A stretch of DNA of 64,000 bases from a virus, in the IMG/VR virus record IMGVR_UViG_3300032271_000682, positions 1 through 64,000 of that record. One strand, written 5' to 3'. The position numbers were made by a program, and so were the translations under genes. Shown piece after piece: positions 6,469-39,259 of the stretch. Numbering within the stretch: the stretch's first letter is position 1; each line of letters starts with the position of its first letter. The notes under the pieces were generated by a model that saw nothing but the letters and a program-made list of their open reading frames with translations, did not search any database and had not been told where the DNA came from.

Positions 6469-9400
6469 ATGGCCACTCAAGTTCGTACTCTAGATTTTCT
6501 CCCTGATGTTTTTAGAACCGACACCAATGCTCAGTTCTTATCTGCTACGCTAGATCAGTTAGTTCAACAACCTGATTTTGCTAGAGTAGAAGGATTTATT
6601 GGGCAAAAATATGGATATGCGGTTGAACCAACTGATAAGTATGTAGTTGAGCCAACTCAAAGTAGATCCAATTATCAACTCGACCCATCTGTTATCTTTT
6701 TAAAAGACAGTACTCAAACTGCAAAAGACTTTATTAACTATCCTGGAATGGTAAGCGCACTTGACAGTCAGGGTGCCATAACAAATAATAACAATCGACT
6801 ATTTGAAAATCAATTTTATAGTTGGGATAGTTTTACTGATCTAGATATGATGGTTAACTATAGTCAATACTATTGGATTCCAAATGGTCCTGATGCTGTT
6901 AGTGTTGCCACTAATAACGTATACACACTTGATAATTACATTGTGGTTAATGGCATTAATGGATATACCGTCAATGGTATTAGTCAAAAGAATCCTACGC
7001 TAACGTTACTACGTGGCGGTACATATACATTTCAAGTAGATCAGACTTCAAAATTTTGGATTCAGGGTGTTCCTGGATTGTCCGGCTATGGAACAAACGA
7101 CAATGTTAGTACAAGAGATATATTAGGAGTTACTAATAACGGAACCATTAAGGGAACAGTCACGTTTACTGTTCCACAAAAGAACGCACAGCAGCAATAT
7201 ACATTGCCTGGAAATAATTTAGTCAACATTGTAACCACGCTACAATTCAATGAGATCAATGGTCAGACTATTGCAACAGTTAACAATATTGACGGAGTAA
7301 CTCAGCTAGACGGTCAAACGCTGATGTTTTATGACAATAATGATTTAAGTACTCAGATTTATTACTATGTAGTTAGTGTAGCTCCAGTTACTGGAATTAT
7401 TACACTGACTCAAGCTGATGCAATTATTAATAATGAATTAATAATTAGTACTAGTGGTACTATATATGTTGCTAGAAATTTCTATAGAGACAATACTGGA
7501 ACAATTCAATTAATTCCATATATTAGTGCAGTGCTAGATACGCTTTATTATCAAGATGAAACTAACCCATTAAATGTAGGAAGAATCAACTTAATAGACT
7601 CTAACACAACCAATGTTATTAATATCAATGACATTATTGGTGCTACTAATTATGTTAGTCCCAATGGAGTTACATTTATTAATGGTCTTAAGGTAGTATT
7701 TGAATCACCTACTATTCCAACAAATTATCAAAATACTCAGTACTATGTAGCTGGAGTAGGAACTGCGATAAATTTATTACCAGTTAATCAATATCTTAGT
7801 TTTGAAAGTGGCGGCGAAGGAATATATATACCATGGGATTATAATCCTTGGGACAGTACAGTATGGGATCAATCTATATATGTTCCATTGGCATCAGATT
7901 ATTTAACCATCAATCGAGACAGTCGTGATCGTAATGCATGGTCACGTAGCAATCGTTGGTTTAATGAACAGGTTATTAACGCCACTGCTTTATATAATGG
8001 AGTGGCCACTACCAGCACTGCCAATACACCAGTAAGAGCACAAAGACCTATTATTCAGTTCTATGGAAATTTAGGACTATTCAATACTGGAACACAATTT
8101 TTAGGATTTGTAAATTTATTTGACAACACTACCACAAATGCATTTTTACAAGTAGCAGGACAAACTAGCTATACTATAGATGGAATTGAATTATATAGCG
8201 GGCAAACTGTTATTTTCAATGCTGATTTAAATGAGGGCGTAAGACAAAGTATATTTGAAGTTGGTTTTGCCCCAACAGGACCAGATAACACAGAAGTAAT
8301 TACTCTTACTCCTACTCCAAGAATTCGTTGGTGGACAGATCAATTTGATAGCGTATATGATACAAATTTAGAATTGATTGCTACAAATAACAATCAAATA
8401 TACGTATCAAGCGGAACAAAATACGCGGGTACTGGTTGGAGATTCTCTGAGACATTTAGTGGAGTTGATACAGACGGATTCTGGATTGAATCTCAGCTAA
8501 AAACTTCTGTAAATCAAGCTCCACTATTTGACGTGTATGATATCAATGGTTATTCATTAAGTAATCTAGCATATTATCCCGGTACAACTTTTACTGGAAC
8601 TAAATTATTTAGTTATACATCGGGAACTGGTTCAAATGATTCAGTATTAGGATTTCCTATTGCGTATAGTAGCGCCTCTAGTATCGGAGATATACTGTTC
8701 ACTGTTAATTTAAACAGTGACACATTTAATTATCAGCAGGGAACTACAACTGTTACTAATAATATTAGTATTGGTTTCATTTATGATTATTTAACTGCTA
8801 ATACTCCAGTTAATCAAACTGGATATGTTGATGCTTATCGTGCTTCTGCTCAGTATCAAGTATTTCAATTTACAGTTCAATTTATACTTGCCACTGTAAA
8901 TCAAACATCTTTTACATGCGATATATTAGTAACTAATAATGGAATTATTGACCCTCACAATGTATACTACAATGATGTATTATTAAGTGATTCAGAATAT
9001 TCGGTTACAACAAACATTGTCAGTAATACTACTACAATCACTTTATCTTTTCCCACAGCAGTTGGTAGTCAAGTTACTGTTCTATTATACAGTGATCAAG
9101 TTAGTGCTACTGCCTATTATGAGATTCCAAGTAATCTTCAAAATAATCCGTTTAATACAAATATTACTAGCGTAAATGTTGGTGATCTTAAGAATCAATA
9201 TTACTCTATATTCAGTAATTCATTAGGAACAACAGGGACAATTTTTGGACCTAATAATATATATAATCTAGGTAATTTATCTAGATATGGTACTGCAATT
9301 ATACAAAGCAGTGCTCCAATGGTACTACCGGGAGTATTTTTACGTAGACAAGAATTAAATGTTTTTGAAGCATTACAGTATAACAGTGAGCAATATATTG

Positions 9401-12400
9401 AATATAAAACATTGTTAGTTAATTTAACTGATCAAAACGACTTTAGTATATATACTACTCCGTCAAAAATGTTGGACACTATTGTTTATCAAATCTCTAC
9501 AATCAAGAATAGTTCTGATTCGTTCTTTTGGAGCGATATGTTTCCAAGTGGATCTCCATATGTTACAAATCAATATACATATACTTTCCCAGTTTCAACA
9601 GTAACATTACCATTAAACAAAGTTTATAATTTTACTAGTAGTAATTATAACGGCGTATTGATTTATTTGACTACAGTGGTTAATTCTCAGTCAGTTACTA
9701 TTCAACTAATAAGTGGCGTTGATTATGTAGTCAGTGATATTAGTCCACAAGTAGTTGTCAACTATAATATCGTCGATGGTGATGTAATCACTGTCAATGA
9801 ATATAATCAAACATACGGTCAATATTGCCCTAATACTCCGACTAAGCTTGGACTATATAAGAGTTATATTCCTGCTGTAATATTAGATACAACTTATACT
9901 ACTCCAACATACTTTATATTAGGTCATGATGGTAGTTATAATACACTTTACGGTGAGTATATCGATGGTCATTTAAATGATTTTCGTGATCAAGTTCTGC
10001 TTGAATTTGAAAGCAGAGTCTATAACAATCTAAAAATAAAGAGCGTGATACCTCTTCAAGCAGAAGATGTAATTCCTGGACAATTTAGAACCACCGATTA
10101 TACTTGGGCTGAATATATTGAAATATATCAGACTAATTTCTTAAAATGGGTCGGAGCTAACAGAGTTGATTATAAAACTCAAGTATATACTAAGTCAAAT
10201 CAATTTACATATAACTATAATCAAAGCACTAATAAACTAACTGGGGAATTATTACAGCAGGGTTACTGGCGTGGACTTTATGATTGGTTCTATGATACCT
10301 CAAATCCAGCTGCAGCACCATGGGGAATGTTGGGTTTTGCTAATGAACCAACTTGGTGGTCTAGTAGATACGGAGCTGCTCCGTACACTAGTGATAACAC
10401 ATTAATGTGGACAGAAATTAGCGAGGGATTTATTTGGAATGATGGAGCTTCTTATGTCAATCCTCTATATATCAGAGATGGACTGCTATCAGTGCTTCCA
10501 GTGGATGCTCAGGGAAGTCTAGTATCTCCTCTTCCGACTGTAGTTAAAAATTATAATTCATTAACGTTTCAACGTATTTGGGCAGTAGGAGATCAGGGTC
10601 CAGCAGAGACTAGCTATTTACGTAGCAGTAGTTGGCCGTTTGATTTAATGCGTTTGCTTGCACTTACTAAACCAGCCAAGTTCTTTAATTTATTTGTAGA
10701 TCGTGATTTATATGTACTAGATGAAACTTCGGGTCAGTACTTGTACGATCAACGATATCATTTAGATTCTAGAGCTATTCAAGTATATGGTAATGGAACA
10801 AGTAAAGCTAGTTATATTAACTGGGTGGTTGATTATATTAATCAGCGTGGAGTTAATGGTACAGATGCAGTTACCACTATATTAAAAAACATCGATGTTA
10901 GATTAACCTATAACGTGGCTGGATTTAGTGCGAAAGAATATCTTTCTTTCTTAATAGAAAAATCTACTCCTAATTCATTAAACTCTACGCTACTAATACC
11001 AGATAATAGTTATAAAGTATTGGTGTATAACAATGTGCCAGAACAACAGTTAGTATACTCTAGTATTGTAATACAAAAGACTCCAAATGGTTATACAGTG
11101 TGGGGTAATAGTAAAACTAATCCATACTTTACAGTAGCGGTTCCTGCTGGCGGCGGAAAAGAAACAATTACAGTTGCAAATACATCAGTTCAAGTAAGTA
11201 CTAGTTTTTCTAATACTACTGCTCTTATACCATATGGTACATTGTACTATAGCTCACAGGGTGTTAGTGAATTCATACAAACATACGGACAGTACTTAGT
11301 AGATAGTGGAATGAAGTTTGAATATACTACCAACACTGTTGTTTATAATTGGCAAAATATGATTAGTCAATTTCTAAACTGGACACAACAATATTGGGAA
11401 ATTGGTAGTACCATTAGCTTGAATCCTGCTGCTAAGTTAATGCAACTAGTAAGTCCTGGATTATCTGTCAGACCGTTGGATACTCAATTTAATTATATTC
11501 TGAATCAGAATTTATTATCATTGCAAAATCAAAACGTTTCTATCATAAGAGAAAATGAATCGTTTAGTGTTCAAGTATTATCGGACGGAGATACAATTGC
11601 ATTAAGTAATTTACATTTATCTAGTATAGAAAGTGCGGTTATATTCGATAACTACACTGTATTTAACGATACTATATATGATCTAGTTACTGGATTACGT
11701 CAAGATAGATTATTACTACAGGGATTTAAATCAGCTAATTGGACTGGCTACATGAATGCTCCTGGATTTATTATAAGTCAGAATAATATTCAAGATTGGG
11801 CGCCATATGTAAAATATCCACAGGGATCGGTTATTACGTTCAAGGGTAACTACTGGACTGCTATTGAATTGGTTCAACCCAATGCTCAATTCAGTCAAGA
11901 ACAATGGAAGTATGTCGAACAGAATCAGATTCAGTTTGGTCTATTACCTAATCCAAGTACGAATGCTTATGAAAGTTTATACTACTATGATACAAAAAAT
12001 CCTAGTTTAAGTAATGATAAAGACTTACTAGCATATAGTTTAATTGGATACAGACCTCGTAAATATCTAGAAGATGCGGACTTAAGCTTAATTACTCAAG
12101 TTAATGTTTATCAAAACATTATACAAGAAAAAGGTACTAACTTAATAGCAAACTCGTTTAAGAGTGCCAATCTATTACAGGGTCAAATCGATTATAATGT
12201 ATCTGAAAACTGGATAATCAAAACTGGATCATTCGGAACAATATCTAATAGTAATTTCGTTGAAGTATTACTAGATCAGAGTTTATTAACTAGTAACCCA
12301 ACATTAATTGGATTTACTGAGAACAGTGTTCCCGTAACTGGAGTAGAGCAAAATGTTAATGTTACCAACTTAATAAATTGGGGAACTCAGCCTACTAGTC

Positions 12401-15400
12401 AGTACTTTTTACCAGAATTCAATAACGTATACAGTGATGAGCGTGGATTACCCTCGGCTGGATATGTAAATCTCAATGATGTTACGTATATTACATTTAA
12501 TTTAACTGATCTAAATAATAATCCAGACAGTATTAATACACTGTATCGTAGTAATATTATATGGGTAGCTAGCTATATGGGTAGTTGGGACGTGTTTACT
12601 CCTGTTCCTATCGGTAGTCAGATCACTCAAATTACTAACAATTTAGATAACTCAGTAACAGTTACATTTGGTCAATATCATGGACTTTCAAAGTATGATC
12701 CGTTTGTAATATTTCAGTTAGATCCATCAGTAAATGGATACTATCAAGTTGCTTCGGTAGTATCGGCCACTAGTGTTATAGTAGGATTAGTATTAGCTTC
12801 TACCACTACAACAATATCAGGGCCTGGACTAGCATTTAAATTAATTAGTCGTCGTTTCGCTCAAGCAAGTGATCAAGTGTTTGATACGATTCCATACTCT
12901 GAGTTTTATGCTAAAAATAGTTGGGTAGACGAAAATACAGACGGTCAATGGGCAGTTTGGGGTTCTGCTCCAATATATAGTCCAACTCAATTATCATTAT
13001 CAACAGTAGAGGCTGCTCTTGCAGTAGGAACATCAGTTGCATATTCAACAGAAATTGGCTCAATGGTAGCTGATGAACTGTCTGGAATATTGTATCGCTA
13101 CTATCAAGATTCTGATGGTGTAGATCAATTACAAACTATTAGTATCAGTGGATCTTCCGTAGGCACAAATATGGTTGCCACCGGGTCATACTTATTTGCT
13201 AGTGATTCAATGAACGGTCGAGTTTATGTGTTTAAACTTAATACTGCAAATCAATTAGTACTAATTGATACAGTGACTCGTAACAACACAGGAGCAATTG
13301 CAGTAAGTACTGACGTTCAATGGTTATATATAGCTAACACTGTTACAAAAACTGTATTTGTATATTCATTAAATGATTCTACTAGTACATATAGTTATGT
13401 AAATTCAGTGATTGGCCCTTCAACTGCTATTGGATTTGGTACTAGTATTGCTACTAGTATAGATGGTACTAAATTAATTGTTGGCGCTCCAGATCAAAAT
13501 TTACCAACTACCAACTTTACAATAGCTAAAGCTGGAGCAACATATGTCTATAGTAGATCATATCAGAATTTCTTATCAACTGGATCTACTACTTACGTTA
13601 CGTTCAATACTATTCCAAATAATATTGCTGATGTTTATGTAAATGATGTATTGATAACTAGTGGAGTAACTGTCAGTGGATCTACTGTTACGTTTACTAC
13701 TGCCCCTGCTTATGGATCATTAGTCACTGTTAGTTATGGTTACATGACTCAAGTACAAATGATGTTGAGTGCTCAACCCATCAATGGTGGTAATTTTGGA
13801 ATTAGCGTCTCTACTAACAAATACGCGGCTCAAATATTAATAGGAACTCCGTTTGAATTATCAACTGCTAATAATATTCCTAATGTTCAGGGAGCAGTTT
13901 ATCGTTGGACTAATAGTGGTCAGCAATACGGTTCTATTATCGGAACAGTTGCTAGTTCAGTATCAGGAACAATGTTCATTGATGGCTATAGAGTCAATTT
14001 CAATGGATTAGCCGCTGATATCGTCGATCAAATCAATACTCAAACTCCAAGTAATATTAAAGCAATTGCAATTGATAACGTATTACAAATTGGAATTATC
14101 AATGGAACACAAGAATTTGTTAACAATGTCATTGATCTAGTTGCTACTGAAGCAGTGTTGTCTCAGTTAGGTATTACACTGTATACTAGCACTCAAGTAA
14201 TTGTTAGTCCAACACTTAACAGCACTGGACAGTTTGGTTCACTAGTAGCAATGGGAAATGATAATAGTTTGATAATCACCGACCCTATCGCAAGACCATT
14301 AAGCGAAACTACATTTGACTATAGCGCACAGGGACAATCTATATCTAATCTTAATAATTATACTATATTCGACAATGGTAGTACCACATACGTGGATACA
14401 TTTGGTCAAATTGGTGTTGTTTATGAGTTTAATTATTTGCCAGCATACAATGAAAGCATTAGTAATGTTGGAAATTATGTATTCGGTCAGTATATTCAAT
14501 CAATATATCGTGTTGGAATTTCAAAATCTCCTAAGTTTGGTACTAGCATTGCTAACAATGATGGAGTAATTGTAGTCGCGTCTCCCACATGGTATGCCAA
14601 TGGAGACGGAATAGCTTTTAAATTTGCTCCAGTCAATCAATCTACTAGTTGGTACTTAGATAAAACTCCATTGCCAATGGTAGATGTGAATAAATTAAAT
14701 TATATTAGCATCTATGATACTATTACAAATGAAACCTTAGGTTATCTAGATTATATTGATCCAGTTCAAGGAAAACAATTAGCGGCTGTCACAACTAACT
14801 TAGATTATATTCAGTCAAATGATCCTGCTAGTTACGTACAGGGTCTAATATGGACTATTAAGCAGGTTGGTAGCACATGGCTGGACACCACTAATCTACG
14901 TATGTTAAATTATAATCAACCAGACATTGTATATAACTCTAAGATTTGGGGTCAAGCATTTCCTGGTAGTTTAGCTGATATATACACTTGGGTTCAAAGC
15001 TCAGTAGCTCCAATTAATTGGACTAGTGGCGGCATTGTTGTAAATTATAATTTATTTAATACAACTATTGTTCAAGATAGATCCAGTGGAGCTCTTGTTA
15101 CTAATTATTTCTTCTGGGTTAAGAACTTCAATGAAATTTCATCAACCAAAACATTGAGTCCATTAACTATTAGTCAGTATGTATTAAATCCATTAAATAG
15201 TGGAATCTCATATTTAGCTGCTATAACAACTAATGTTGTAGCACTAATGAATAATAGCTCAAACATAAGAAGCAATAGTAGTGCGCTACACATTGGTTAT
15301 AGTACTGGAACTAATACAGATGAAAAGCATACTAGTTGGACATTGATTCAAGAAAATAATTCTGATAGCTTTTTGCCAGGATTACCAACGGCGATTAATT

Positions 15401-18400
15401 CAGAACCAACTAGCTTATACTTAAAGTATTTAGATAGTTTTGCTGGGCAAAATAGACTTGGAATATATATTCCTAGTACTAAGCAACCACTATTAACTCA
15501 ATTTGGAGTTGACTATTATCAAAGTATGTATGTCAATAGGCTTACAGCTTTAAATAACTATATACAGTATGCTAATGATATACTAATCAAATTACCTATA
15601 GCAGAAACAAGAAATTTTTACTTCTTGAATAAAGTTGGCGCATCATATGATACAACTAAATTCTGGGAATATACTGACTGGTGGGCTCCTGGATATAATT
15701 CTAGTACGATAGCAGTAGTTGAAGTTCAGTACTATGCTGATCTACAGACTATACAGTCTAATCAATTAATAGACAGTACTACTACACTTATTCTTGGACT
15801 TCAAGACGGATTGATTGCTAGAGTAACTGGTAGCAACAGTGGCAATGCACAAACATATGTATATAATATGGCAACTGGATGGGTATTGATTGGAATCCAA
15901 AACGGTACAATTCAAATCTTGTCTACATTGTATACAGATCCATATGGATGGGATAGTAATTCTTATGATACTGCTCCATTTGATGCCACGTATGCTCAAG
16001 AAACTTACTATATTATTCGTTGGTTAAATGAACAATGTTATATCAATGAACTTGAAATTGAACGTAACAATAGTTTGATATTAATGTTCAATTATATGAC
16101 CAGTGAGTCACTAGAACAGCAGAATTATTTAAACTGGCTTAATAAGACCAGCTTAATTAATGTTAGTCATAAAGTTCGTGAATTGCTGCCATATAAAAAA
16201 TATCAAGCGGATAATCAAGAATTTTTAGTAGGCTACTTAAACGAAGTTAAGCCGTATCACGTTAAGATCAATGATTTCTTATTCACTTATCCTGGTCTGG
16301 ACATATACACTGGCAACATCAGTGATTTTGATTTGCCTGCTCAGTATTATGCTCGTAATGGACAATTTGAAAGTCCTCAATTAGTATATACTAATCCGAA
16401 TAATAATTTTAATGAGTATTTGCCAACAAGTGATATTTGGAATCAACAGGAATATACAAATTGGTTTAACAACTATGGACTGAGTATTACTAATGAGAAT
16501 AGTATTACTAATATAACTCAGACAAGTGAACCAATAACATCATCAAGTTTAATTATTCCAGTTAAAAATTCATATGGATTCCCAACTAGTGGAACAATTA
16601 TAATTGGTGAAGAAAAAATATCATACTCTAGTATAAATCATTTACTGTCAGAATTGATTGTAACTTATCGTGGAGCAGATAATACTATTGCAACCTCTCA
16701 TTCAGCAAACTCTAATATCACTGCTATATTACCAGCAGTAATTGTTATAGATGGAGGAAGAGGATACATAGAGCCGCCTATAGTTACCGTATCTATAGAT
16801 ACAACTGAGTATTCAAGTCCTAGAGCTCCAGCAATACTATCTTGTGTGATGAGCAATCAAACTGTTTCTACTATTAATGTAGTAGACGCTGGTTCTGGAT
16901 ATGCCACAGCTCCGGTTATAATTATAGCAGCAAGCAGTATTAGTTCTACATTCACATCAACTGATATTGATTTAGTAGAAAATACTATTACTATTACTGG
17001 ACATCCTTTTGTCACTGGCGATTCAATTACCTATCGTTACAATGTTCTTACCACCGTTGCTCCTGTTGGATTGCAAAATAATGAATATTATTATGTAAGA
17101 TCAATTGACGTGGATACTATTGCTTTATACAATACTATCAGAGGAGCATATGACGTAACTAAGTTGCCAATATTTGATACAGATAGAATAGACTTGATTA
17201 CAGTAGGATCTGGAACAGATAATATATTGGCAGTAACAGCTAAGGCAATCGCATTCAATGGTGGTCAACCAGTTCGTGAAGTTACTACTACTATTAAGTT
17301 TGATAGAATAAGTTATGGTAGTAAAATTACTAGCTGGGGCGGAGGCATTACATATATTGCTCTTATAAGTTTAGTTACATATGCAGGAAAACTATGGCAA
17401 TGTATTAATTCCAATACTTCTTCGACATTTGTATATGAAGACTGGGTTCAAATATACAGCGATAATAGTATGTTAAATGCTGCTGACAGAGTAGCGGCTT
17501 TCTATGATCCAACCGCTAATATGTCAGGCAATGATCTTAGACAATTAATTACTGGAGTAGAATATCCTAACTCAATAGTGTTGGGAGAACCATTTGATTA
17601 TGGATTAAAAACTTGGGATTCTACTGGATGGGATGTTAACTTATGGGATCAAGATGTTACGTTTAATATTGATGCTAACGTACAAAGTCCTTCATTTAAC
17701 TACGACGTATTGACAAATCCAACCGTATATGATATTCAGGGTGGAAGATTCCAAGATGGATATGGGCCAGAAGAATTAGTTCCTGGAATTGTCACCGATG
17801 AATTAGAGTTCAATGTAACTACTGATCCTGCTACGCTGCCTGGAACGTATCTAAACTTTAGAATTCAAGTGAACAAGTATGGAGTTGGATCAGTATATAA
17901 TACTAATCCTTATACACAAACCACGCTTACTGAAGACTTTGTAAGTCGTAATAGTATCGCTGACGTACTATATGTAAGCGATGCCAGTGTATTAGTAGAT
18001 ACAACTATTACTAGCGGAACTACCGATATCAATGGCGTAATAATAGTTGAGGGTAATATGTCATTGATAGTTGCTCCGATTACAATTGATATTGATACTC
18101 AATTTGATGCAGTTCAAATTCCTGGAACCAATTTTATATCAATCACTATATACGGAATTACACCTCCTGTTGCTGTTACAGTGACAGTACATCAGGGTAA
18201 TATGTTATTAGTTAATAGTGAATATATACAGTTTACTGAGATTGATTTGACTGCTAATACAGTTACAGGACTATTACGTGGAAGAATGGGTTCAATTACC
18301 AATGACTTTATTGCCAGTGGTGCCATTGTTCAAAGTGTTCTTAGTAGAGATATGTTACCAGAAGAGTACTACTATCAATGGTGGTATAATAGTGCAGCAT

Positions 18401-18510
18401 GGGACAATGTTCCTTGGGACAATCAGCCATGGGATGCAACATTTGTTAGTGAAACATTAGAAGAAAGTACTACTGTTCCTGCCGAATTCTTAAAACAACA
18501 GTCTGCGTGA
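6469..18510 (+). CDS. Giant baseplate/tail structural protein (4013 aa)
   Basis: One uninterrupted frame of 12 kb. The N-terminus (VRTLDFLPDVF...FLSATLDQLVQQPDF, then YVVEPTQSRSNYQLDP and YYWIPNGPD) resembles a family of very long structural proteins that follow gp6 in aquatic T4-like phages, where T4 has gp7. Residues about 2190-2730 contain FG-GAP-like blades (FGTSIATSIDGTKLIVGAP, FGISVSTNKYAAQILIGTP, FGTSIANNDGVIVVASP), suggesting a beta-propeller. Residues about 3500-4000 are beta-rich with aromatic PWD/WDNVPWD motifs near the end. Composition is dominated by Asn, Thr, Ser, Ile and Tyr with very few Cys. It probably forms an extended baseplate-peripheral or adhesin-like arm. Family placement is from memory of motifs; exact function is inferred from position. 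Confidence 0.75.
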   Translation: MATQVRTLDFLPDVFRTDTNAQFLSATLDQLVQQPDFARVEGFIGQKYGYAVEPTDKYVVEPTQSRSNYQLDPSVIFLKDSTQTAKDFINYPGMVSALDSQGAITNNNNRLFENQFYSWDSFTDLDMMVNYSQYYWIPNGPDAVSVATNNVYTLDNYIVVNGINGYTVNGISQKNPTLTLLRGGTYTFQVDQTSKFWIQGVPGLSGYGTNDNVSTRDILGVTNNGTIKGTVTFTVPQKNAQQQYTLPGNNLVNIVTTLQFNEINGQTIATVNNIDGVTQLDGQTLMFYDNNDLSTQIYYYVVSVAPVTGIITLTQADAIINNELIISTSGTIYVARNFYRDNTGTIQLIPYISAVLDTLYYQDETNPLNVGRINLIDSNTTNVININDIIGATNYVSPNGVTFINGLKVVFESPTIPTNYQNTQYYVAGVGTAINLLPVNQYLSFESGGEGIYIPWDYNPWDSTVWDQSIYVPLASDYLTINRDSRDRNAWSRSNRWFNEQVINATALYNGVATTSTANTPVRAQRPIIQFYGNLGLFNTGTQFLGFVNLFDNTTTNAFLQVAGQTSYTIDGIELYSGQTVIFNADLNEGVRQSIFEVGFAPTGPDNTEVITLTPTPRIRWWTDQFDSVYDTNLELIATNNNQIYVSSGTKYAGTGWRFSETFSGVDTDGFWIESQLKTSVNQAPLFDVYDINGYSLSNLAYYPGTTFTGTKLFSYTSGTGSNDSVLGFPIAYSSASSIGDILFTVNLNSDTFNYQQGTTTVTNNISIGFIYDYLTANTPVNQTGYVDAYRASAQYQVFQFTVQFILATVNQTSFTCDILVTNNGIIDPHNVYYNDVLLSDSEYSVTTNIVSNTTTITLSFPTAVGSQVTVLLYSDQVSATAYYEIPSNLQNNPFNTNITSVNVGDLKNQYYSIFSNSLGTTGTIFGPNNIYNLGNLSRYGTAIIQSSAPMVLPGVFLRRQELNVFEALQYNSEQYIEYKTLLVNLTDQNDFSIYTTPSKMLDTIVYQISTIKNSSDSFFWSDMFPSGSPYVTNQYTYTFPVSTVTLPLNKVYNFTSSNYNGVLIYLTTVVNSQSVTIQLISGVDYVVSDISPQVVVNYNIVDGDVITVNEYNQTYGQYCPNTPTKLGLYKSYIPAVILDTTYTTPTYFILGHDGSYNTLYGEYIDGHLNDFRDQVLLEFESRVYNNLKIKSVIPLQAEDVIPGQFRTTDYTWAEYIEIYQTNFLKWVGANRVDYKTQVYTKSNQFTYNYNQSTNKLTGELLQQGYWRGLYDWFYDTSNPAAAPWGMLGFANEPTWWSSRYGAAPYTSDNTLMWTEISEGFIWNDGASYVNPLYIRDGLLSVLPVDAQGSLVSPLPTVVKNYNSLTFQRIWAVGDQGPAETSYLRSSSWPFDLMRLLALTKPAKFFNLFVDRDLYVLDETSGQYLYDQRYHLDSRAIQVYGNGTSKASYINWVVDYINQRGVNGTDAVTTILKNIDVRLTYNVAGFSAKEYLSFLIEKSTPNSLNSTLLIPDNSYKVLVYNNVPEQQLVYSSIVIQKTPNGYTVWGNSKTNPYFTVAVPAGGGKETITVANTSVQVSTSFSNTTALIPYGTLYYSSQGVSEFIQTYGQYLVDSGMKFEYTTNTVVYNWQNMISQFLNWTQQYWEIGSTISLNPAAKLMQLVSPGLSVRPLDTQFNYILNQNLLSLQNQNVSIIRENESFSVQVLSDGDTIALSNLHLSSIESAVIFDNYTVFNDTIYDLVTGLRQDRLLLQGFKSANWTGYMNAPGFIISQNNIQDWAPYVKYPQGSVITFKGNYWTAIELVQPNAQFSQEQWKYVEQNQIQFGLLPNPSTNAYESLYYYDTKNPSLSNDKDLLAYSLIGYRPRKYLEDADLSLITQVNVYQNIIQEKGTNLIANSFKSANLLQGQIDYNVSENWIIKTGSFGTISNSNFVEVLLDQSLLTSNPTLIGFTENSVPVTGVEQNVNVTNLINWGTQPTSQYFLPEFNNVYSDERGLPSAGYVNLNDVTYITFNLTDLNNNPDSINTLYRSNIIWVASYMGSWDVFTPVPIGSQITQITNNLDNSVTVTFGQYHGLSKYDPFVIFQLDPSVNGYYQVASVVSATSVIVGLVLASTTTTISGPGLAFKLISRRFAQASDQVFDTIPYSEFYAKNSWVDENTDGQWAVWGSAPIYSPTQLSLSTVEAALAVGTSVAYSTEIGSMVADELSGILYRYYQDSDGVDQLQTISISGSSVGTNMVATGSYLFASDSMNGRVYVFKLNTANQLVLIDTVTRNNTGAIAVSTDVQWLYIANTVTKTVFVYSLNDSTSTYSYVNSVIGPSTAIGFGTSIATSIDGTKLIVGAPDQNLPTTNFTIAKAGATYVYSRSYQNFLSTGSTTYVTFNTIPNNIADVYVNDVLITSGVTVSGSTVTFTTAPAYGSLVTVSYGYMTQVQMMLSAQPINGGNFGISVSTNKYAAQILIGTPFELSTANNIPNVQGAVYRWTNSGQQYGSIIGTVASSVSGTMFIDGYRVNFNGLAADIVDQINTQTPSNIKAIAIDNVLQIGIINGTQEFVNNVIDLVATEAVLSQLGITLYTSTQVIVSPTLNSTGQFGSLVAMGNDNSLIITDPIARPLSETTFDYSAQGQSISNLNNYTIFDNGSTTYVDTFGQIGVVYEFNYLPAYNESISNVGNYVFGQYIQSIYRVGISKSPKFGTSIANNDGVIVVASPTWYANGDGIAFKFAPVNQSTSWYLDKTPLPMVDVNKLNYISIYDTITNETLGYLDYIDPVQGKQLAAVTTNLDYIQSNDPASYVQGLIWTIKQVGSTWLDTTNLRMLNYNQPDIVYNSKIWGQAFPGSLADIYTWVQSSVAPINWTSGGIVVNYNLFNTTIVQDRSSGALVTNYFFWVKNFNEISSTKTLSPLTISQYVLNPLNSGISYLAAITTNVVALMNNSSNIRSNSSALHIGYSTGTNTDEKHTSWTLIQENNSDSFLPGLPTAINSEPTSLYLKYLDSFAGQNRLGIYIPSTKQPLLTQFGVDYYQSMYVNRLTALNNYIQYANDILIKLPIAETRNFYFLNKVGASYDTTKFWEYTDWWAPGYNSSTIAVVEVQYYADLQTIQSNQLIDSTTTLILGLQDGLIARVTGSNSGNAQTYVYNMATGWVLIGIQNGTIQILSTLYTDPYGWDSNSYDTAPFDATYAQETYYIIRWLNEQCYINELEIERNNSLILMFNYMTSESLEQQNYLNWLNKTSLINVSHKVRELLPYKKYQADNQEFLVGYLNEVKPYHVKINDFLFTYPGLDIYTGNISDFDLPAQYYARNGQFESPQLVYTNPNNNFNEYLPTSDIWNQQEYTNWFNNYGLSITNENSITNITQTSEPITSSSLIIPVKNSYGFPTSGTIIIGEEKISYSSINHLLSELIVTYRGADNTIATSHSANSNITAILPAVIVIDGGRGYIEPPIVTVSIDTTEYSSPRAPAILSCVMSNQTVSTINVVDAGSGYATAPVIIIAASSISSTFTSTDIDLVENTITITGHPFVTGDSITYRYNVLTTVAPVGLQNNEYYYVRSIDVDTIALYNTIRGAYDVTKLPIFDTDRIDLITVGSGTDNILAVTAKAIAFNGGQPVREVTTTIKFDRISYGSKITSWGGGITYIALISLVTYAGKLWQCINSNTSSTFVYEDWVQIYSDNSMLNAADRVAAFYDPTANMSGNDLRQLITGVEYPNSIVLGEPFDYGLKTWDSTGWDVNLWDQDVTFNIDANVQSPSFNYDVLTNPTVYDIQGGRFQDGYGPEELVPGIVTDELEFNVTTDPATLPGTYLNFRIQVNKYGVGSVYNTNPYTQTTLTEDFVSRNSIADVLYVSDASVLVDTTITSGTTDINGVIIVEGNMSLIVAPITIDIDTQFDAVQIPGTNFISITIYGITPPVAVTVTVHQGNMLLVNSEYIQFTEIDLTANTVTGLLRGRMGSITNDFIASGAIVQSVLSRDMLPEEYYYQWWYNSAAWDNVPWDNQPWDATFVSETLEESTTVPAEFLKQQSA

Positions 18511-24442: not shown

Positions 24443-25375
24443 ATGAATATTGAATACATAGATGTTGCTGATCTCGACACAATTTTTTTAACTTATGATG
24501 AACCAAAAAAAGAAGAATTTTGGGTCAGAATAAAAAACATGATTCCATGGGCAAAGCGTGTAGATAACGTATATGGAAGTGATGCTGCTCATAAAGCTGC
24601 CGCTGATCAATCCGAAACTGAGCGTTTTATACTAATTGACGGTGATAACATGCCAGATCAAAAGTTCTTTGATTTAACACTAGAGATCACTGATCAAAAT
24701 AAACATCATCAAATGCGTTGGCGTGCAAAGAATCACGTTAATGGATTATATTATGGAAATGGTGGCATATCTAGTTGGACAAAAACATACGTTCATAATA
24801 TGAAGACTCATGAAAACACCGATGGTAGCGACAAAACTAACATAGAGTTTTGTTTTGATCCAATGTATGTGCCAATGCATGATTCTTATAGTACTACATA
24901 CATTAATCACAGTCCAAAGCAAGCATGGCGTGCAGGATTTCGTGAGGGTGTTAAGATGTGTACTCGTGATGGAGTAATACCTAAAAATAGACAAGAATTC
25001 TTAACGTGGTTGTGGCCCAGTAATTTACAAAATTTGTCAATATGGCATAGTATGGGACGTGATGTTGAGAATGGATTTTGGGCTATATTAGGTGCTAGAC
25101 TAGGAACTCACTATCTAATGTTACACGAGGGCTGGGATCACACAGATGTTCGTGACTTCAACAAATTAGATGAATTATGGGAAAGACACAAAAACAATGA
25201 TGAACAAGTTGCTATTGATATTGCTAAAGATTTAAACAAATATCTCGGAACAAACATTGTTGAGTTTGATGAAAGACAAAGTAAATTTTTTAAAGATTAC
25301 ATTAGTAAAAATTGGCATAATATGGGACCAATGATTACAGAAATGTCAGTAGTTAGAGCAAGAGAAGGATGGTAA
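24443..25375 (+). CDS. GT-A-like domain protein (TYDEP family)
   Basis: The 310-residue protein begins with a strand, DTIFLTYDEPKKEEFW, then SDAAHKAAADQSETERFILIDGDNM, where DGDN is in the place of a DxD motif. NHVNGLYYGNGGISSW and a Trp-rich part (AWRAGFREGVKMC, FLTWLWPSN, VENGFWAILGAR) follow. The same order of motifs (IIFFSNNEPAAEENF, SQHAAANTSETSWYFLVNG, VNGLEYGHQAIV, WRTAFREVIKL, GEWSIKGAQ) forms residues about 789-990 of the 1012-residue protein at 32711, where the acidic motif is lost (LVNGK). A nucleotide-sugar-binding role is inferred. CTAAATATT lies 4 bp before the ATG. Confidence 0.6.
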   Translation: MNIEYIDVADLDTIFLTYDEPKKEEFWVRIKNMIPWAKRVDNVYGSDAAHKAAADQSETERFILIDGDNMPDQKFFDLTLEITDQNKHHQMRWRAKNHVNGLYYGNGGISSWTKTYVHNMKTHENTDGSDKTNIEFCFDPMYVPMHDSYSTTYINHSPKQAWRAGFREGVKMCTRDGVIPKNRQEFLTWLWPSNLQNLSIWHSMGRDVENGFWAILGARLGTHYLMLHEGWDHTDVRDFNKLDELWERHKNNDEQVAIDIAKDLNKYLGTNIVEFDERQSKFFKDYISKNWHNMGPMITEMSVVRAREGW

Positions 25376-26670
25376 TGATAGATAACAATAATAAAAGTTT
25401 TTGTGCAGTTCCGTTTGTAAGTACAATGGTCAACACAGATACAACAATTAGATACTGCTGTATGGTTCGAGGAACACATAATAAATTAAAAAAAGAGGAC
25501 GGCACATTCTATTCTTGTAAGGATAATTTTATAACCGACTCTTGGAATAGTTCAGACATGAGAACAATCAGATTGAATATGATTGATGGCAATAAAATAG
25601 AAGGGTGTACGGTATGTTATGATCAAGAATCCAACGGCAGAACTTCTAATCGTGAACATGCTAATCGTGAATGGTCATGGCGTTTAGGTCAAGAACATAT
25701 GAATGATCTTATTACACAAGCAATTGACAACAATGGTCACTTAGATAGTGATCCAGTATATTTGGATTTACGTCTTGGCAATCTGTGCAATCTAAAATGT
25801 CGTATGTGCAACCCATGGAATTCTAGTCAGATCGTTAAAGAACACGTTGAACTAGCAGAGAAAAATCCTGAGTATAATGAAGTATGGCGCAAAACATTTG
25901 GTAAATTTCCTATCACAGTAATGGATGATCAACAATGGTTTGATCATGACATCTTGTGGGATCAAGTTATTTCCTTAATCCCTACCTTAAAAAAAGTCTA
26001 CATGACCGGCGGTGAACCTACACTTATCAAAAACAACATCAAGTTTATGCAACGTTGCATTGACGCTGGTCGTACAGATATTGTATTGTTCTTTAATACC
26101 AACTGCACAAACATAAACAAAAAGTTTTTAGAATTGATCTCACAATTCAAACAAGTAAACATAAATGCGAGTATGGATGGTATTGGTGTTGTCAATGAAT
26201 ATATACGTGCGCCGAGTGATTGGAAATTAATCAGTGAGAATATTGAGAAGCTAGCTCAAATGCCCAATATCAATCTGGGAGTTACTCCCACAATTCAAGT
26301 GTACAATGTATTCGACATTGTGAATATGTTAAACTGGGTAGATGAACTGAATATTCGTCACGGTAAACAAATCTTTATCGACTTCTTGGTCAATCATCAC
26401 CCACATCATCTTGCTGTGCGAATACTAGATGATGAGATGCGAGGAGCTGCATTGGATATGATATCGGGCTATATGGCAGTGACAAAGATCCAGCCTTCAA
26501 CACAAACATTTAACTCGCTTAAAGGCATCATTGGTTTACTACAGCAGCCGCGAGTTGATGACTGGGAAGAACAATTACATCGATTTAAAGTCTACACCAA
26601 TGCATTGGATGTAGAACGTGGGCAATCTATTACTAATATTGATCAACGACTGGCGGTCTTATGTCACTAA
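25375..26670 (+). CDS. Radical SAM protein with accessory Cys region (1 of 3)
   Basis: The core cluster motif is CNLKCRMC (CxxxCxxC) within LDLRLGNLCNLKCRMCNPW, followed by GGEPTLIKN (the GGE motif that binds the SAM amino group). An N-terminal module with SFCAVPF and IRYCCMV, then CTVCYDQE, looks like a Cys-rich auxiliary-cluster region placed before the barrel, as in phage 'twitch-type' radical SAM proteins. The start is at the TAATG overlap (25375); an ATG two codons earlier is also in frame. It likely uses SAM to make a 5'-deoxyadenosyl radical; the substrate is unknown. It overlaps the next, homologous gene by 10 bp. Confidence 0.8.
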   Translation: MIDNNNKSFCAVPFVSTMVNTDTTIRYCCMVRGTHNKLKKEDGTFYSCKDNFITDSWNSSDMRTIRLNMIDGNKIEGCTVCYDQESNGRTSNREHANREWSWRLGQEHMNDLITQAIDNNGHLDSDPVYLDLRLGNLCNLKCRMCNPWNSSQIVKEHVELAEKNPEYNEVWRKTFGKFPITVMDDQQWFDHDILWDQVISLIPTLKKVYMTGGEPTLIKNNIKFMQRCIDAGRTDIVLFFNTNCTNINKKFLELISQFKQVNINASMDGIGVVNEYIRAPSDWKLISENIEKLAQMPNINLGVTPTIQVYNVFDIVNMLNWVDELNIRHGKQIFIDFLVNHHPHHLAVRILDDEMRGAALDMISGYMAVTKIQPSTQTFNSLKGIIGLLQQPRVDDWEEQLHRFKVYTNALDVERGQSITNIDQRLAVLCH

Positions 26671-35751: not shown

Positions 35752-36420
35752 TTATGCTGATCTCAACAGCGCGGAATCTATAAAAACTGGATCAGTTATT
35801 ACTAATGTACCATCTGATCTAGCCATTACATTGGCAGCATGAAGATCGGGTTCAAAGTCTCCAGAGTTAATCAATGTTTTTGCTATGTCTAATGCGTCGA
35901 TCCATTGAGGATGAGTTGATCCCCAATTTATATAAAAACTACTATCTTTATATTTTGGACTATTAGTCATATCGCTTGGCATGCCACTATTTCTTAGTAC
36001 ACTATTTGACCATTTAATTATTCTTATATCATCATCGTTAGTAACTGGAGTAAGCTTTTCCATTCTAATAGCTGATACTTCAGGAGTAACAGAAACTATT
36101 CGTTTACTAATAAATTTGGGCATGTGAACGTTATTTGTGTGTTTACGTGCGGTTGATATCCAAGCAGTATAGGCAGTATCGGTTGAGATAAACACTTTAA
36201 GAACATAAGATAATTTTGAATGACTCCATACTGTCCCAAAACCGCCTGAGCCCAATGGGTGAAATCCATTCTTTAGTAGTACGTCATGCCATTCAACTCC
36301 CATAGGATAGGGACTATCACTATTTCTGATTCTTTTAGGAACAGGCAAATCTTTAATTTGACTTTTAATGCCAATTAATTCTGTCAATGTATCTTCTAGT
36401 ATGATTTCTGTTATTTTCAT
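35752..36420 (-). CDS. Protein kinase-like protein with T4-type capsid-targeting N-terminus
   Basis: The 222-residue protein has a glycine-rich loop (GSGGFGTVW, 57-65), a candidate ATP-binding Lys in YVLKVF (K75), a catalytic-loop-like DLHAANVM (192-199) and ITDP (208-211) at the metal-binding position. These are the key features of kinase-fold phosphotransferases; the fold is small and the C-lobe is short. The N-terminus, MKITEIILE, resembles the T4 capsid-targeting peptide and ends in an [LI]xE cleavage-type site at residues 7-9. It is the last gene of a three-gene - strand operon, starting in a TAATG overlap, and has a full-length paralogue two genes upstream. Kinase activity is inferred from motifs. 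Confidence 0.68.
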   Translation of the reverse strand: MKITEIILEDTLTELIGIKSQIKDLPVPKRIRNSDSPYPMGVEWHDVLLKNGFHPLGSGGFGTVWSHSKLSYVLKVFISTDTAYTAWISTARKHTNNVHMPKFISKRIVSVTPEVSAIRMEKLTPVTNDDDIRIIKWSNSVLRNSGMPSDMTNSPKYKDSSFYINWGSTHPQWIDALDIAKTLINSGDFEPDLHAANVMARSDGTLVITDPVFIDSALLRSA

Positions 36421-36748: not shown

Positions 36749-37438
36749 TTAATCTCTATTCATAAGAGCATCAGTGTCATACACGGGGTCGGTCATTACC
36801 AAAGTATTACCACGTAACATAAAATTTCCAGTATGTATGTCAAATTTAAATTTAGAGTTATAACTAAATTCTTTTAAAATTTGAATCGCATCCATCAATT
36901 GTGGATAGGCATTACAGTATTTATTAAACAGATCAATTTCTTCTTTCGACATTCTTCTAGTTTCATTGTGTAACGTTAGTTTAATGAAATATATAATATC
37001 ATTCATTAATTGACCTCTCGTTGGGGCTAATTTTTCCATTCTAATTGCTGATACTTCTGGCGTAATTGGAAATGCTTTCGTACTAATAAATTTGGGAAAA
37101 TGTGGATTATTTTTATTTTGAATGCACACGTTAACCCATCCAAGGTATGCTACGTCTGTAGTTCTAAACACTTTTAATACATATTGCAACTTTGGATGTT
37201 CCCATACTGTTCCGAATGATCCAGAACCCATTGCAGTGAATCCATTATTTGTCATGACATCATGCCATTCTAATCCCAATGGTCGAGTATCAGCCGCACC
37301 TTGATCTTCATCTGGTTTAGGATATTTGAATCCAGGTTTAGGCAAATCTTTGATTTTATTTTTAATACCAACTAGTTCTGTCAATTTTTCTTCATCGATT
37401 GAGCTATTGGTTTCGGGTAAAAATTCATGTGATTTCAT
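36749..37438 (-). CDS. Protein kinase-like protein, paralogue, with capsid-targeting N-terminus
   Basis: Paralogue of the gene at 35752: shared TELVGIKxxIKDLP, then LEWHDVMTNNGF, the glycine loop GSGSFGTVW (71-79), YVLKVF with K89, VSAIRMEKLAP, DIHTGNFM (200-207) and MTDPV (215-219). Active-site-like residues are intact. The frame extends to ATG 37468, but I choose ATG 37438: it gives MKSHEFLPE, parallel to the MKSYEFLIE of the neighbouring gene, and lies 6 bp after GATAAATAC on this strand. The upstream ATG overlaps the -35 box of the divergent promoter. It is first of three - strand genes. An injected kinase is a plausible role but unproven. Confidence 0.68.
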   Translation of the reverse strand: MKSHEFLPETNSSIDEEKLTELVGIKNKIKDLPKPGFKYPKPDEDQGAADTRPLGLEWHDVMTNNGFTAMGSGSFGTVWEHPKLQYVLKVFRTTDVAYLGWVNVCIQNKNNPHFPKFISTKAFPITPEVSAIRMEKLAPTRGQLMNDIIYFIKLTLHNETRRMSKEEIDLFNKYCNAYPQLMDAIQILKEFSYNSKFKFDIHTGNFMLRGNTLVMTDPVYDTDALMNRD

Positions 37439-37444
37439 TGTATA

Positions 37445-37453
37445 GTATTTATC
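37445..37453 (-). promoter_or_regulatory. TATAAATA-like late motif (- strand)
   Basis: GATAAATAC on the - strand, resembling the T4 late promoter TATAAATA. It ends 6 bp before ATG 37438, so transcription from it would start at or next to the start codon, giving a leaderless or almost leaderless mRNA. Confidence 0.5.
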
Positions 37454-37461
37454 CAAAGTAG

Positions 37462-37490
37462 TTGACATATGATATTCATTACAGTATACT
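37462..37490 (+). promoter_or_regulatory. Sigma70 promoter, leaderless configuration
   Basis: TTGACA (37462-37467), 17-bp spacer, TATACT (37485-37490). The ATG at 37497 lies exactly where transcription should begin (about 7 bp after the -10 box). No Shine-Dalgarno can exist unless the start point is unusual. Confidence 0.7.
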
Positions 37491-37496
37491 TATAAA

Positions 37497-37682
37497 ATGA
37501 GCACAGAAAATTTATTTGATTTTACAAACGTACCTCAGTCTAAAAAACGAAAAGAGGTCATCGACGATGTTCGTAACATATTGATTGTGGAATTCTTGGG
37601 AGACAAATCCGGAGAATTACAAGCTAAAAAACTATTTGAAGAACTAGTAGGTCGTGGTTTAAAAGTGAAGATAATGTCATGA
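37497..37682 (+). CDS. Small protein ahead of ABC-GNAT gene (61 aa)
   Basis: Starts MSTENLFDFTNVPQSKKRKEV and continues with two amphipathic segments (DDVRNILIVEFLGD, ELQAKKLFEELVGRGLKVKIM). No known motif. It overlaps the following ATPase-acetyltransferase gene by ATGA and so is probably translated with it and may be its partner. The 5' end is placed by the sigma70 promoter, whose predicted transcription start coincides with the ATG. Confidence 0.6.
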   Translation: MSTENLFDFTNVPQSKKRKEVIDDVRNILIVEFLGDKSGELQAKKLFEELVGRGLKVKIMS

Positions 37683-38791
37683 GAACATATGAATTAACAT
37701 TAAAATGTGATGCGCCAACTGACTTCTATTGTGTCAAAGCAGCCAACTCGGTTGACTTAGATATTGATAAGAAATTAACACATAATATTAAGATTAGAGC
37801 TGATCTTGACACTCGGTACAATGTTGGTCTTATCATTGGAGCAAGTGGATCAGGTAAGACTACTCTTGCTAAACATATTTGGGGAAACAATTGCTTTGAT
37901 ACACTACTAAAACCAGATACAGCTCCTATTTCACAATTCGATGAATCATATAGCTATGATGAACGAGTGGCATTCTTAAGCGGAGTTGGTTTAGCATCAC
38001 CCACTTGTTGGATTGCTCCATCTAAAACATTAAGTAACGGTCAACAAGCAAGAGCAGAAGCAGCATTACAAATGGCTAGATTAGACGGTAAGTTTACAGT
38101 CATTGATGAATTTACTAGTGTAGTAGATAGAACTGTAGCCAAAGCAATGGCACACGCGGTACAAAAACATGCACGAAAAACAGGCAAGACTATAGCACTG
38201 CTCAGTTGTCACTATGATGTATTAGAATGGTTGAACCCAGATTGGGTCATCGATTGTAATACTCAAGAGTACACTGACCGGAGGTCACTTTGTCGAGGGT
38301 TTACCAGAACCGAAGAGCTTGTTTTTGGGATTAGACAACTTACTGACAACAAAAGTTGGAAAGTCTTTAGCAAGTATCACTATCTAAGCGATACTCTACC
38401 ACCAGGAAAAAACTATAGTTTTGGATTGTTTAGTGGAGATAATCAGATTGGATTCTGTGCCTTTTCAAATTATGTAATGTGGAAACAAGAACATAAAGAT
38501 AAAGGCATTCCAATGGTGTTACATGCTAATCGAATTGTAATTCATCCTGATTATTGTGGGTTCGGTTTGGGTGGCAAGTTTACTGATATATGTGCTGATC
38601 ACTTACAAAATGAAATGGGCTTTGATGTTCAGATCAAATTGAGCAGTGCTAGTATGGCTATTTCGCTTAAACGAAATCCACGTTGGGAACTAAGAGAAGT
38701 TAAACGAAACATTCATAATATCTGGAGCAATCACGAGAATCGTAAGGGTAGAATGGATGTAAAAACGTGGTCGTTTAATTTTCTTGGCTAA
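37679..38791 (+). CDS. ABC-type ATPase fused to GNAT acetyltransferase
   Basis: N-terminal ATPase: Walker A GASGSGKTT (54-62), signature-like LSNGQQARAEA (about 118-128), Walker B FTVIDEF (about 138-144) and an H-switch LLSCH. C-terminal GNAT from about residue 215, with HANRIVIHPDYCGFGLGGKFTDI as the acetyl-CoA-binding strand and P-loop. There are no membrane segments, so it is not a transporter. This fusion recurs in large phages and some bacteria; the acetyl acceptor is unknown. The Walker A and B residues look intact. It ends just before the tmRNA promoter. Confidence 0.8.
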   Translation: MRTYELTLKCDAPTDFYCVKAANSVDLDIDKKLTHNIKIRADLDTRYNVGLIIGASGSGKTTLAKHIWGNNCFDTLLKPDTAPISQFDESYSYDERVAFLSGVGLASPTCWIAPSKTLSNGQQARAEAALQMARLDGKFTVIDEFTSVVDRTVAKAMAHAVQKHARKTGKTIALLSCHYDVLEWLNPDWVIDCNTQEYTDRRSLCRGFTRTEELVFGIRQLTDNKSWKVFSKYHYLSDTLPPGKNYSFGLFSGDNQIGFCAFSNYVMWKQEHKDKGIPMVLHANRIVIHPDYCGFGLGGKFTDICADHLQNEMGFDVQIKLSSASMAISLKRNPRWELREVKRNIHNIWSNHENRKGRMDVKTWSFNFLG

Positions 38792-38802
38792 TCCAAATTT
38801 TA

Positions 38803-38831
38803 TTGACAATAACGATAAATACGTGTATACT
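38803..38831 (+). promoter_or_regulatory. Sigma70 promoter of the tmRNA gene, with embedded late motif
   Basis: TTGACA (38803-38808), exactly 17 bp, TATACT (38826-38831). Start expected near 38838, just before the acceptor piece. The spacer also contains GATAAATAC (38814-38822), the late-type motif, so the RNA could be made by both early and late transcription. Confidence 0.75.
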
Positions 38832-38837
38832 ATGTTT

Positions 38838-38927
38838 TTAAAGAATTGTTGTAAACCCTGAGTAATCAGGACAGAAGTAAAGAGAAAAGTGTCCAAGACG
38901 AGGGTTCGATTCCCTCCAGCTTCACCA
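38838..38927 (+). ncRNA. tmRNA acceptor piece
   Basis: From the predicted transcription start to the encoded CCA. Contains a hairpin CCTGA-GTAA-TCAGG (38857-38870), the proposed P2 3' strand TGTCCA (38890-38895), a perfect 5-bp T stem with 7-nt loop, and the acceptor 3' strand. The mature 5' end is not known; 38838 is the predicted transcription start. Confidence 0.8.
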
Positions 38928-39068
38928 TAAAGGGATTACATGAATTACATTGACAATACAATAGTGCTTGAAAACGGCAGAACAGTACATTATACAAAAG
39001 ATGTATCTAAAATGTCGCTTAAAGAAGCTAATAAAATGTTAGTCACTATTAGAAAGTCTCTTTATGAT
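38928..39068 (+). other. tmRNA intervening segment (141 nt)
   Basis: The segment between the CCA and the GGGGCTG 5' end. In two-piece tmRNAs it is transcribed and then removed by tRNA-type processing (RNase P making the 5' end of the coding piece). Here it contains an AAAGGGA ribosome-binding site and an ATG (38940). Confidence 0.7.
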
Positions 39069-39128
39069 GGGGCTGACCAGGTTTCGATTGGGCAAAGAGT
39101 AACGGAATGGACAACTCGACACAGATAG
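38940..39128 (+). CDS. Small ORF inside the tmRNA intervening segment (62 aa)
   Basis: Starts 12 bp after the tmRNA CCA, preceded by AAAGGGA at good spacing. The first 43 codons, in the intervening segment, read like a genuine protein: MNYIDNTIVLENGRTVHYTK, then SKMSLKEANKMLVTIRKSL. The last 19 codons (from about 39069) run into the tmRNA coding piece and are constrained by RNA structure. The frame could be a real phage protein that shares its DNA with the tmRNA, or chance. RNA processing would cut its mRNA, so translation and tmRNA maturation may compete. No function is recognised. Confidence 0.5.
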   Translation: MNYIDNTIVLENGRTVHYTKDVSKMSLKEANKMLVTIRKSLYDGADQVSIGQRVTEWTTRHR

Positions 39129-39230
39129 TCGTAAAAAGTAAACAACCAATAAATGCTAACGATGAAAATTGGGCATTAGCCGCTTGAAAAAGTTGCTTAG
39201 GGTAGGAAATACCTCGTAACAGAAAATACC
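39069..39230 (+). ncRNA. tmRNA coding piece
   Basis: Begins with acceptor 5' strand GGGGCTG, then the D-loop-like region, a P2 strand (39108-39113), an A-rich stretch upstream of the resume codon, the tag frame (39155-39187), and a hairpin GGTA-GGAAA-TACC (39201-39213). The 3' end is set by the terminator immediately after. Confidence 0.82.
39155..39187 (+). other. tmRNA tag reading frame (ANDENWALAA)
   Basis: GCT AAC GAT GAA AAT TGG GCA TTA GCC GCT TGA. It differs from the E. coli tag ANDENYALAA only by Trp for Tyr at position 6. The C-terminal ALAA needed for ClpXP/ClpAP recognition is kept. The resume codon is taken as GCT by analogy with other tmRNAs. Confidence 0.88.
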
Positions 39231-39259
39231 AATAGGGACTTTCGAGTCCCTATTTTTTT
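39231..39259 (+). terminator. Rho-independent terminator of tmRNA
   Basis: Stem ATAGGGACT / AGTCCCTAT with a TTCG tetraloop (39232-39252), followed by a run of seven Ts. A textbook terminator, and a defined 3' end for the permuted tmRNA transcript. Confidence 0.92.

Follow-up and report, generated by a model that had tools for sequence, protein, structure and literature searches.

The window, a stretch of 64,000 nucleotides belonging to an 89,795-bp virus record, encodes a two-piece phage tmRNA, and the spacer excised from between the two pieces probably doubles as the gene of a small protein, which would make the transcript both a tmRNA precursor and a nested mRNA. Protein genes nested in tmRNA spacers appear to be the new element, and judging by their sequences they recur in dozens of related viruses. 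A search of open-access text found no earlier description of such a gene; the contents described there are a tRNA and a repeat for cellular spacers and, for group I introns, endonuclease genes. The tmRNA of the window is not new by itself, since a two-piece tmRNA has already been published by Buchholz et al. 2022 for the T4-like phage Melnitz, with 53 two-piece forms among 133 unique phage tmRNA structures (PMC9004378). An initial annotation of the window, made from its letters without database searches, had known of no well-described permuted tmRNA in a T4-like phage, a statement that Melnitz contradicts. The 2025 tmRNA database contains 79 phage sequences (PMC11915505).

The same annotation had proposed a phage-encoded, circularly permuted tmRNA and a covariance-model search as a check on it. 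ARAGORN called a permuted tmRNA at about 38824-39256, and two Rfam models gave scores above their gathering cut-offs, RF01850 (beta_tmRNA) at 38824-39256 (103.4 bits, gathering 84, E 2.4e-30) and RF04321 (tmRNA_permuted) at 38869-39187 (94.3 bits, gathering 47, E 5.5e-17). Related contigs carry this gene as well. The permuted tmRNA of the window is real and lies far above chance. Its acceptor piece is located 5' and its coding piece 3', both joined by a 7-bp acceptor stem that includes G3.U70 (Table 1). The order described initially (T arm, acceptor strand and encoded CCA, then 141 nt, then GGGGCTG) agrees with the sequence in its coordinates, and so do the tag ANDENWALAA and the promoter and terminator that bound the unit. 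The acceptor pairing with its G3.U70 wobble was also right, with a second wobble, G2.U71, to be added; the P2-like helix exists, with 7 pairs (one of them G.U) instead of the 6 bp proposed. The longer tag suggested by ARAGORN, VKSKQPINANDENWALAA, was discarded because its resume codon is placed too early when compared to the Rfam alignment, and the Rfam-aligned resume codon was preferred. The T loop of the window has no group I intron, the T arm being continuous.

Table 1. Features of the tmRNA locus in the window. Positions are those of the window.
Feature	Position	Strand	Details
Sigma70-type promoter TTGACA-N17-TATACT	38803..38831	+	11/12 consensus matches; kept in sister phage L002
P2-like helix, 5' strand TGTCCAA	38890..38896	+	Partner TTGGGCA 39088-39094; sequence, RF04321 alignment
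T arm GAGGG-TTCGATT-CCCTC	38900..38916	+	Sequence, Rfam
Acceptor 3' strand CAGCTTC (38917-38923), discriminator A73 and encoded CCA (38924-38927)	38917..38927	+	End of acceptor piece
Spacer helix, 5' strand, A76 and TAAAGGGATTA	38927..38938	+	Pairs with 39054-39065 (MFE); holds Shine-Dalgarno AAAGGGA
Intervening sequence (spacer), 141 nt, proposed nested mRNA	38928..39068	+	Boundaries from acceptor pieces
Nested ORF, 62 aa, MNYIDNTIVLENGRTVHYTKDVSKMSLKEANKMLVTIRKSLYD followed across the boundary by GADQVSIGQRVTEWTTRHR	38940..39128	+	43 codons in spacer, 19 in coding piece; stop TAG 39126-39128
Spacer helix, 3' strand (39054-39065), and conserved GAT (39066-39068) opposite A73-C74-C75	39054..39068	+	MFE folds, covariation
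Acceptor 5' strand GGGGCTG	39069..39075	+	7/7 pairs with 38917-38923; predicted RNase P product end 39069
D-loop motif GGTTTCGA	39080..39087	+	Sequence, Rfam
Tag reading frame ANDENWALAA and TGA (GCT..GCT TGA)	39155..39187	+	Sequence, ARAGORN, Rfam; degron-like C-terminus
Intrinsic terminator	39231..39259	+	10-pair stem and T tract

The piece order, the G3.U70 acceptor stem, the T arm, the D-loop motif, the tag frame and the encoded CCA are shared with the permuted tmRNAs that define RF04321 and RF01850, whereas the gene of the window is phage-encoded, has an apparently protein-coding spacer and carries a coding-piece signature that gave no match in cellular genomes. The predicted pair of RNA pieces, of about 90 and 190 nt, is reasonable; that prediction omits a third expected product, the spacer RNA, which resembles a small mRNA.

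The ORF in this spacer had been overlooked. Its ATG is located 12 nt past the CCA and is preceded by the Shine-Dalgarno sequence AAAGGGA (38929-38935), and the frame is open through 39068, with no stop codon ahead of the boundary, and it reads GAT/GGG into the coding piece. Its codon-usage score was higher than that of 100% of the off-frame 43-codon windows taken from the genes of the phage itself, and it lay within the lowest 7.5% of the true gene windows. The ORF is kept in contigs L005 and L056 with two synonymous changes and one nonsynonymous change, the only three substitutions available for this allele, and the spacer cluster holding it has a probability of 0.015 in dinucleotide shuffles. 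No homologues were found in PHROGs, in Pfam, in isolate phages or in IMG/VR outside its own spacer allele. The spacers of the sister phages L002 and L003 are short and contain no comparable ORF, and the nested gene is therefore dispensable for the tmRNA. As the evidence from the window ORF is weak by itself, relatives were collected.

Three scans of IMG/VR together with the loci of relatives collected earlier yielded 256 loci, 197 of which were permuted tmRNAs by acceptor and T-arm criteria, with 111 unique spacers that formed 88 clusters. The metagenomic contigs were retrieved with short patterns, one of which fixes the last bases of the spacer, and make up a convenience sample. Among the 32 clusters with spacers of at least 140 nt, 26 were open from a canonical Shine-Dalgarno sequence and start near the CCA to the boundary, when only 0.47 were expected (P ~1e-47) from dinucleotide shuffles, a statistic that ignores phylogenetic relatedness. 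A Shine-Dalgarno sequence was present in the 5' strand of the terminal helix in 46 of the 61 clusters with spacers of at least 82 nt, versus 2 of the 27 shorter ones (p 2e-9). The frames of these 61 clusters end in different ways: 31 stop at the TGA inside the conserved boundary TTATGAT/GGG, 11 stop 9-13 nt before the boundary, and 7 run into the coding piece (the run-in class), with the last full codon exactly at the predicted cut in six of them; the remaining 12 have no single ORF of this kind, some of them showing tandem or offset ORFs (L225, L105, L207). The 475-nt spacer of L225 (locus 8628-9102) contains two tandem ORFs, the second of which is 112 aa long and resembles GNAT acetyltransferases by its GYRRKG motif (only E 0.02 in Pfam).

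Some of the nested products belong to known families. A NifU_N/IscU-type scaffold protein is encoded wholly within the spacer of L243 (E 3.3e-55), and a thioredoxin (E 4e-21) within those of L171, L204 and L224, which come from three metagenomes. Other cargo includes a PGDYG protein, transmembrane proteins and hydrophobic miniproteins of 22-24 aa. The contig L204 also encodes a ribonucleotide reductase, an endolysin-like protein and a tail-spike-like protein. Homologues of nested genes are found free near the tmRNA in related contigs: iscU is free-standing 1.7-7 kb upstream of the tmRNA in several relatives, the gene nested in L066 has a free homologue in L105, 53 nt upstream of the T arm, and that of L103 has one in L119, just downstream of the tmRNA. 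No iscU other than the spacer copy was found in the L243 contig. The dN/dS ratios, calculated between pairs of relatives, show purifying selection on several nested genes (0.05 for L066/L099, 0.08 for L153/L247, 0.10 for L087/L102 and 0.17 for L157/L165), and two run-in families, L077/L111 (ratio 0.9) and L152/L235 (2.0), showed weak or no constraint.

A conserved helix of about 12 bp, formed between the two ends of the spacer, extends the acceptor stem. Across the 88 clusters, a mean of 8.70 of nine tested pairs formed in the register contiguous with the acceptor stem, compared to 4.1-5.6 in other registers, and at the variable positions each spacer's own ends made 4.77 of five pairs versus 3.27 for swapped ends (permutation p <=1e-4, relatedness ignored). 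Covariation was also observed in the acceptor stem itself (for example GGGGCTG/CAGCTCC, GGGGAAG/CTTCTCC, GGGCCTG/CAGGTCC), which is not independent evidence because the loci were picked by this pairing; the spacer helix was not used for picking. The MFE fold of the window contains the acceptor stem, an A73:U-1 pair, a C.A mismatch, a C75:G-3 pair and the 12-bp helix (z -5.0 and -3.7), with the Shine-Dalgarno sequence buried in the helix and the ATG just outside it, and the isolated spacer folded alone retains the helix. The 3' strand with its GAT also provides the stop codon in about half of the families with spacers of at least 82 nt.

Two cultured phages were informative about the spacers. 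Melnitz (MZ577097) has a spacer of 143 nt, counted from the A of the CCA, and shares with the window a two-piece tmRNA in a T4-like phage, a similar spacer length, the terminal helix and a run-in ORF, differing in its alpha-type elbow (T-loop GGCAGTA). The Melnitz ORF (MFKWLSKTRLVVITRDYFRERNRKADAKIPKYLSGTRSVYD, followed across the boundary by GGELGSTGRNRKV) would give a product beginning MFKWLSKTRLVV; it is unannotated in the record, where only SsrA is marked across the region, and no mention of it was found in the sections of PMC9004378 consulted, which propose a glutamine riboswitch nearby. Among unique equal-length IMG/VR alleles of the Melnitz family the ORF frame has a pN/pS of about 0.30, when the other two frames give 1.28 and 0.48, and a longer group of relatives keeps the frame across an 8-codon insertion. 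This constraint indicates that run-in ORFs are genuine genes in at least one family. In the distant relatives L287-L290 the same protein core ends at its own stop codon ahead of the boundary, and a nonstop end is thus tolerated, not essential, in this family. The second phage, the cultured jumbo phage Phosso of Sinorhizobium (PV764938, 349596-350198; L265), has a permuted alpha-type tmRNA with no annotated feature and a spacer of 411 nt that is not coding, which indicates that spacer length alone does not imply coding.

A nested gene in the window itself has to be weighed against an ordinary phage permuted tmRNA in which the spacer ORF, open by chance or left by a decayed passenger, makes no protein. 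This alternative is rather unlikely, and several observations agree with it: the tmRNA alone accounts for the Rfam matches, the frame is off the boundary TGA by one register and enters the coding piece, the ORF has no free homologue, and three substitutions with respect to L005 are too few for measuring selection. However, the codon usage surpasses every off-frame window of the phage genes, the Shine-Dalgarno sequence and the start lie exactly at the nested-gene start site of dozens of other spacers, and purifying selection acts on the run-in class in the Melnitz family. The spacer is better read as a probable small protein gene.

In this proposed dual-use locus, a single transcript would start at the sigma70 promoter and finish at the terminator. 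It would be cut by RNase P and 3' processing enzymes of the host, at 39068/39069 and after the CCA at 38927, and the two tmRNA pieces would act with host SmpB, EF-Tu, AlaRS and ClpXP. The spacer freed by the cutting may be translated, before or after its release, into a small phage protein, and translation would compete with, or come after, processing of the precursor. The unprocessed precursor of the window would give the 62-aa protein, and the spacer, once processed, would become a nonstop mRNA with the complete Asp codon GAT at its end, itself a tmRNA substrate. A functional coupling between this nonstop mRNA and the tmRNA can only be put forward as a doubtful extension. It would take the form of a self-referring switch, in which ribosomes stalled on the stopless spacer mRNA are rescued by the tmRNA from the same transcript and the level of active tmRNA sets the accumulation of the nested protein, the spacer being a general cargo slot in other phages; this combination is equally improbable. 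A related alternative, with a similarly low probability, is that the helix blocks the ribosome-binding site until the RNase P cut, and that the run-in spacer then recruits its own tmRNA, the product being made only when tmRNA is scarce or being tagged for degradation. The position of the Shine-Dalgarno sequence within the helix that continues the acceptor stem, the full codon at the cut in the six run-in clusters and the frame preserved in the Melnitz relatives are consistent with this putative control; however, L287-L290 end the same core at their own stop, so that nonstop status is not essential there, and an A-U-rich helix may be opened by ribosomes anyway.

The phage RNA might instead be a decoy that titrates SmpB and EF-Tu, blocking host trans-translation rather than performing it. 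Inhibition of host tmRNA has been reported for the TLD-only RNA of phage DS6A (PMC4131195; PMC11915505), and no SmpB (PF01668) was detected in 30 phage contigs (the window record and 29 others, nearly all tmRNA-bearing, some of which may be fragments). Nevertheless, the tag frame, the stop, the resume region and the ...ALAA degron are intact in the window and in most relatives, unlike DS6A, and this explanation is improbable. As no SmpB was found in those contigs, host SmpB must serve the phage tmRNA, and it is plausible that the phage supplies its own ribosome rescue in this way. Recent capture of a two-piece tmRNA from a host, which the initial annotation had suggested, is very improbable: the best older Rfam model is betaproteobacterial and hosts with two-piece tmRNA exist, but an exact-pattern scan of 84,980 cellular species genomes gave zero matches to the tag DNA and zero to the coding-piece signature, and the nearest sequences are those of sister phages, whose alleles compose the gene.

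This composition is a mosaic of two sister-phage alleles, as judged by the identities along the gene. The window and L002 share 70 of 75 positions in the promoter region, 87 of 91 in the acceptor piece and 85 of 88 in the first part of the coding piece, and the window and L005 share 139 of 142 in the spacer, 31 of 31 in the tag and 68 of 69 in the 3' part; this pattern indicates that tag and spacer move between phages by recombination inside the tmRNA gene. Among isolates, the jumbo phage Atu_ph07 has the DNA polymerase closest to that of the window phage (46%), which places the latter among the T4-related large phages, and BUCT-ZZ01 is the only isolate phage with the tmRNA lineage of the window, its spacer having no ORF with a Shine-Dalgarno sequence. 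The proposed dual-use locus of the window and of its relatives can be compared with two known cases. The tmRNA with a group I intron and a homing endonuclease gene (PMC11915505) also loses from its precursor a segment containing a protein gene, but that segment is a self-splicing T-loop intron with a mobile endonuclease, whereas the window has no intron and the phage spacers lie between mature ends and carry diverse cargo (thioredoxin, IscU, transmembrane miniproteins). One permuted tmRNA has a tRNA-Ala in its intervening sequence (PMC11915505), likewise an additional gene in a spacer, but this is a single case and the gene is an RNA gene, not a protein-coding one.

Several other observations were made on these phages. 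The elbow variants among relatives are of alpha-type versus beta/cyano-type by their loop sequences, and covariation of the D-loop/T-loop elbow was discarded as a novelty because the Rfam alpha_tmRNA consensus already pairs a GGCgGUA T-loop with a AGGAUCGA D-loop. In L005 (T arm just before 5846), L006 and L058, three contigs of separate metagenomes, an otherwise intact tmRNA has an 8-nt T loop (TATCGTAT) rather than one of 7 nt. Unusual tag C-termini are found in L105, L120, L123 and L134 (ANDEKFLMAA, ANDESYRIAA, ANDSEYRLAA and AKKVNANDSQFLMVA), and these ends may alter protease targeting. Tandem-repeat-like DNA with GGTCTTTGT-type units lies 3' of the sister-phage tmRNA at 5540-5700 of L002. 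In the window, the gene of a 370-aa ATPase/acetyltransferase-like protein (phrog_11143, 37679-38791) adjoins the tmRNA, and in the close relatives L002, L003, L005 and L006 the tmRNA is also within about 1.3 kb downstream of the phrog_11143 gene. Two proteins that resemble the T7 gp0.7-type kinase family (phrog_15752) are encoded on the minus strand 1.4-3 kb upstream of the tmRNA (35752-36420 and 36749-37468); the family is annotated as acting on RNase III, RNase E and the transcription of the host, and these neighbours deserve notice given that host RNases are required by the tmRNA precursor. A radical SAM protein (25369-26670) and a single ORF of 4013 aa (6469-18510) are also present in the window.

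If the spacers are translated, one phage transcript would hold both a two-piece structural RNA and an mRNA, the processing helix would give the ribosome-binding site and often the stop codon too, and the synthesis of phage protein may be tied to the maturation of the tmRNA. Since spacers are regarded as discarded sequence, nested genes are skipped by annotators, as in the Melnitz record. Nested spacer genes would be a possible reason for phages to keep the permuted form of tmRNA, and their recognition would expose a set of hidden small genes.
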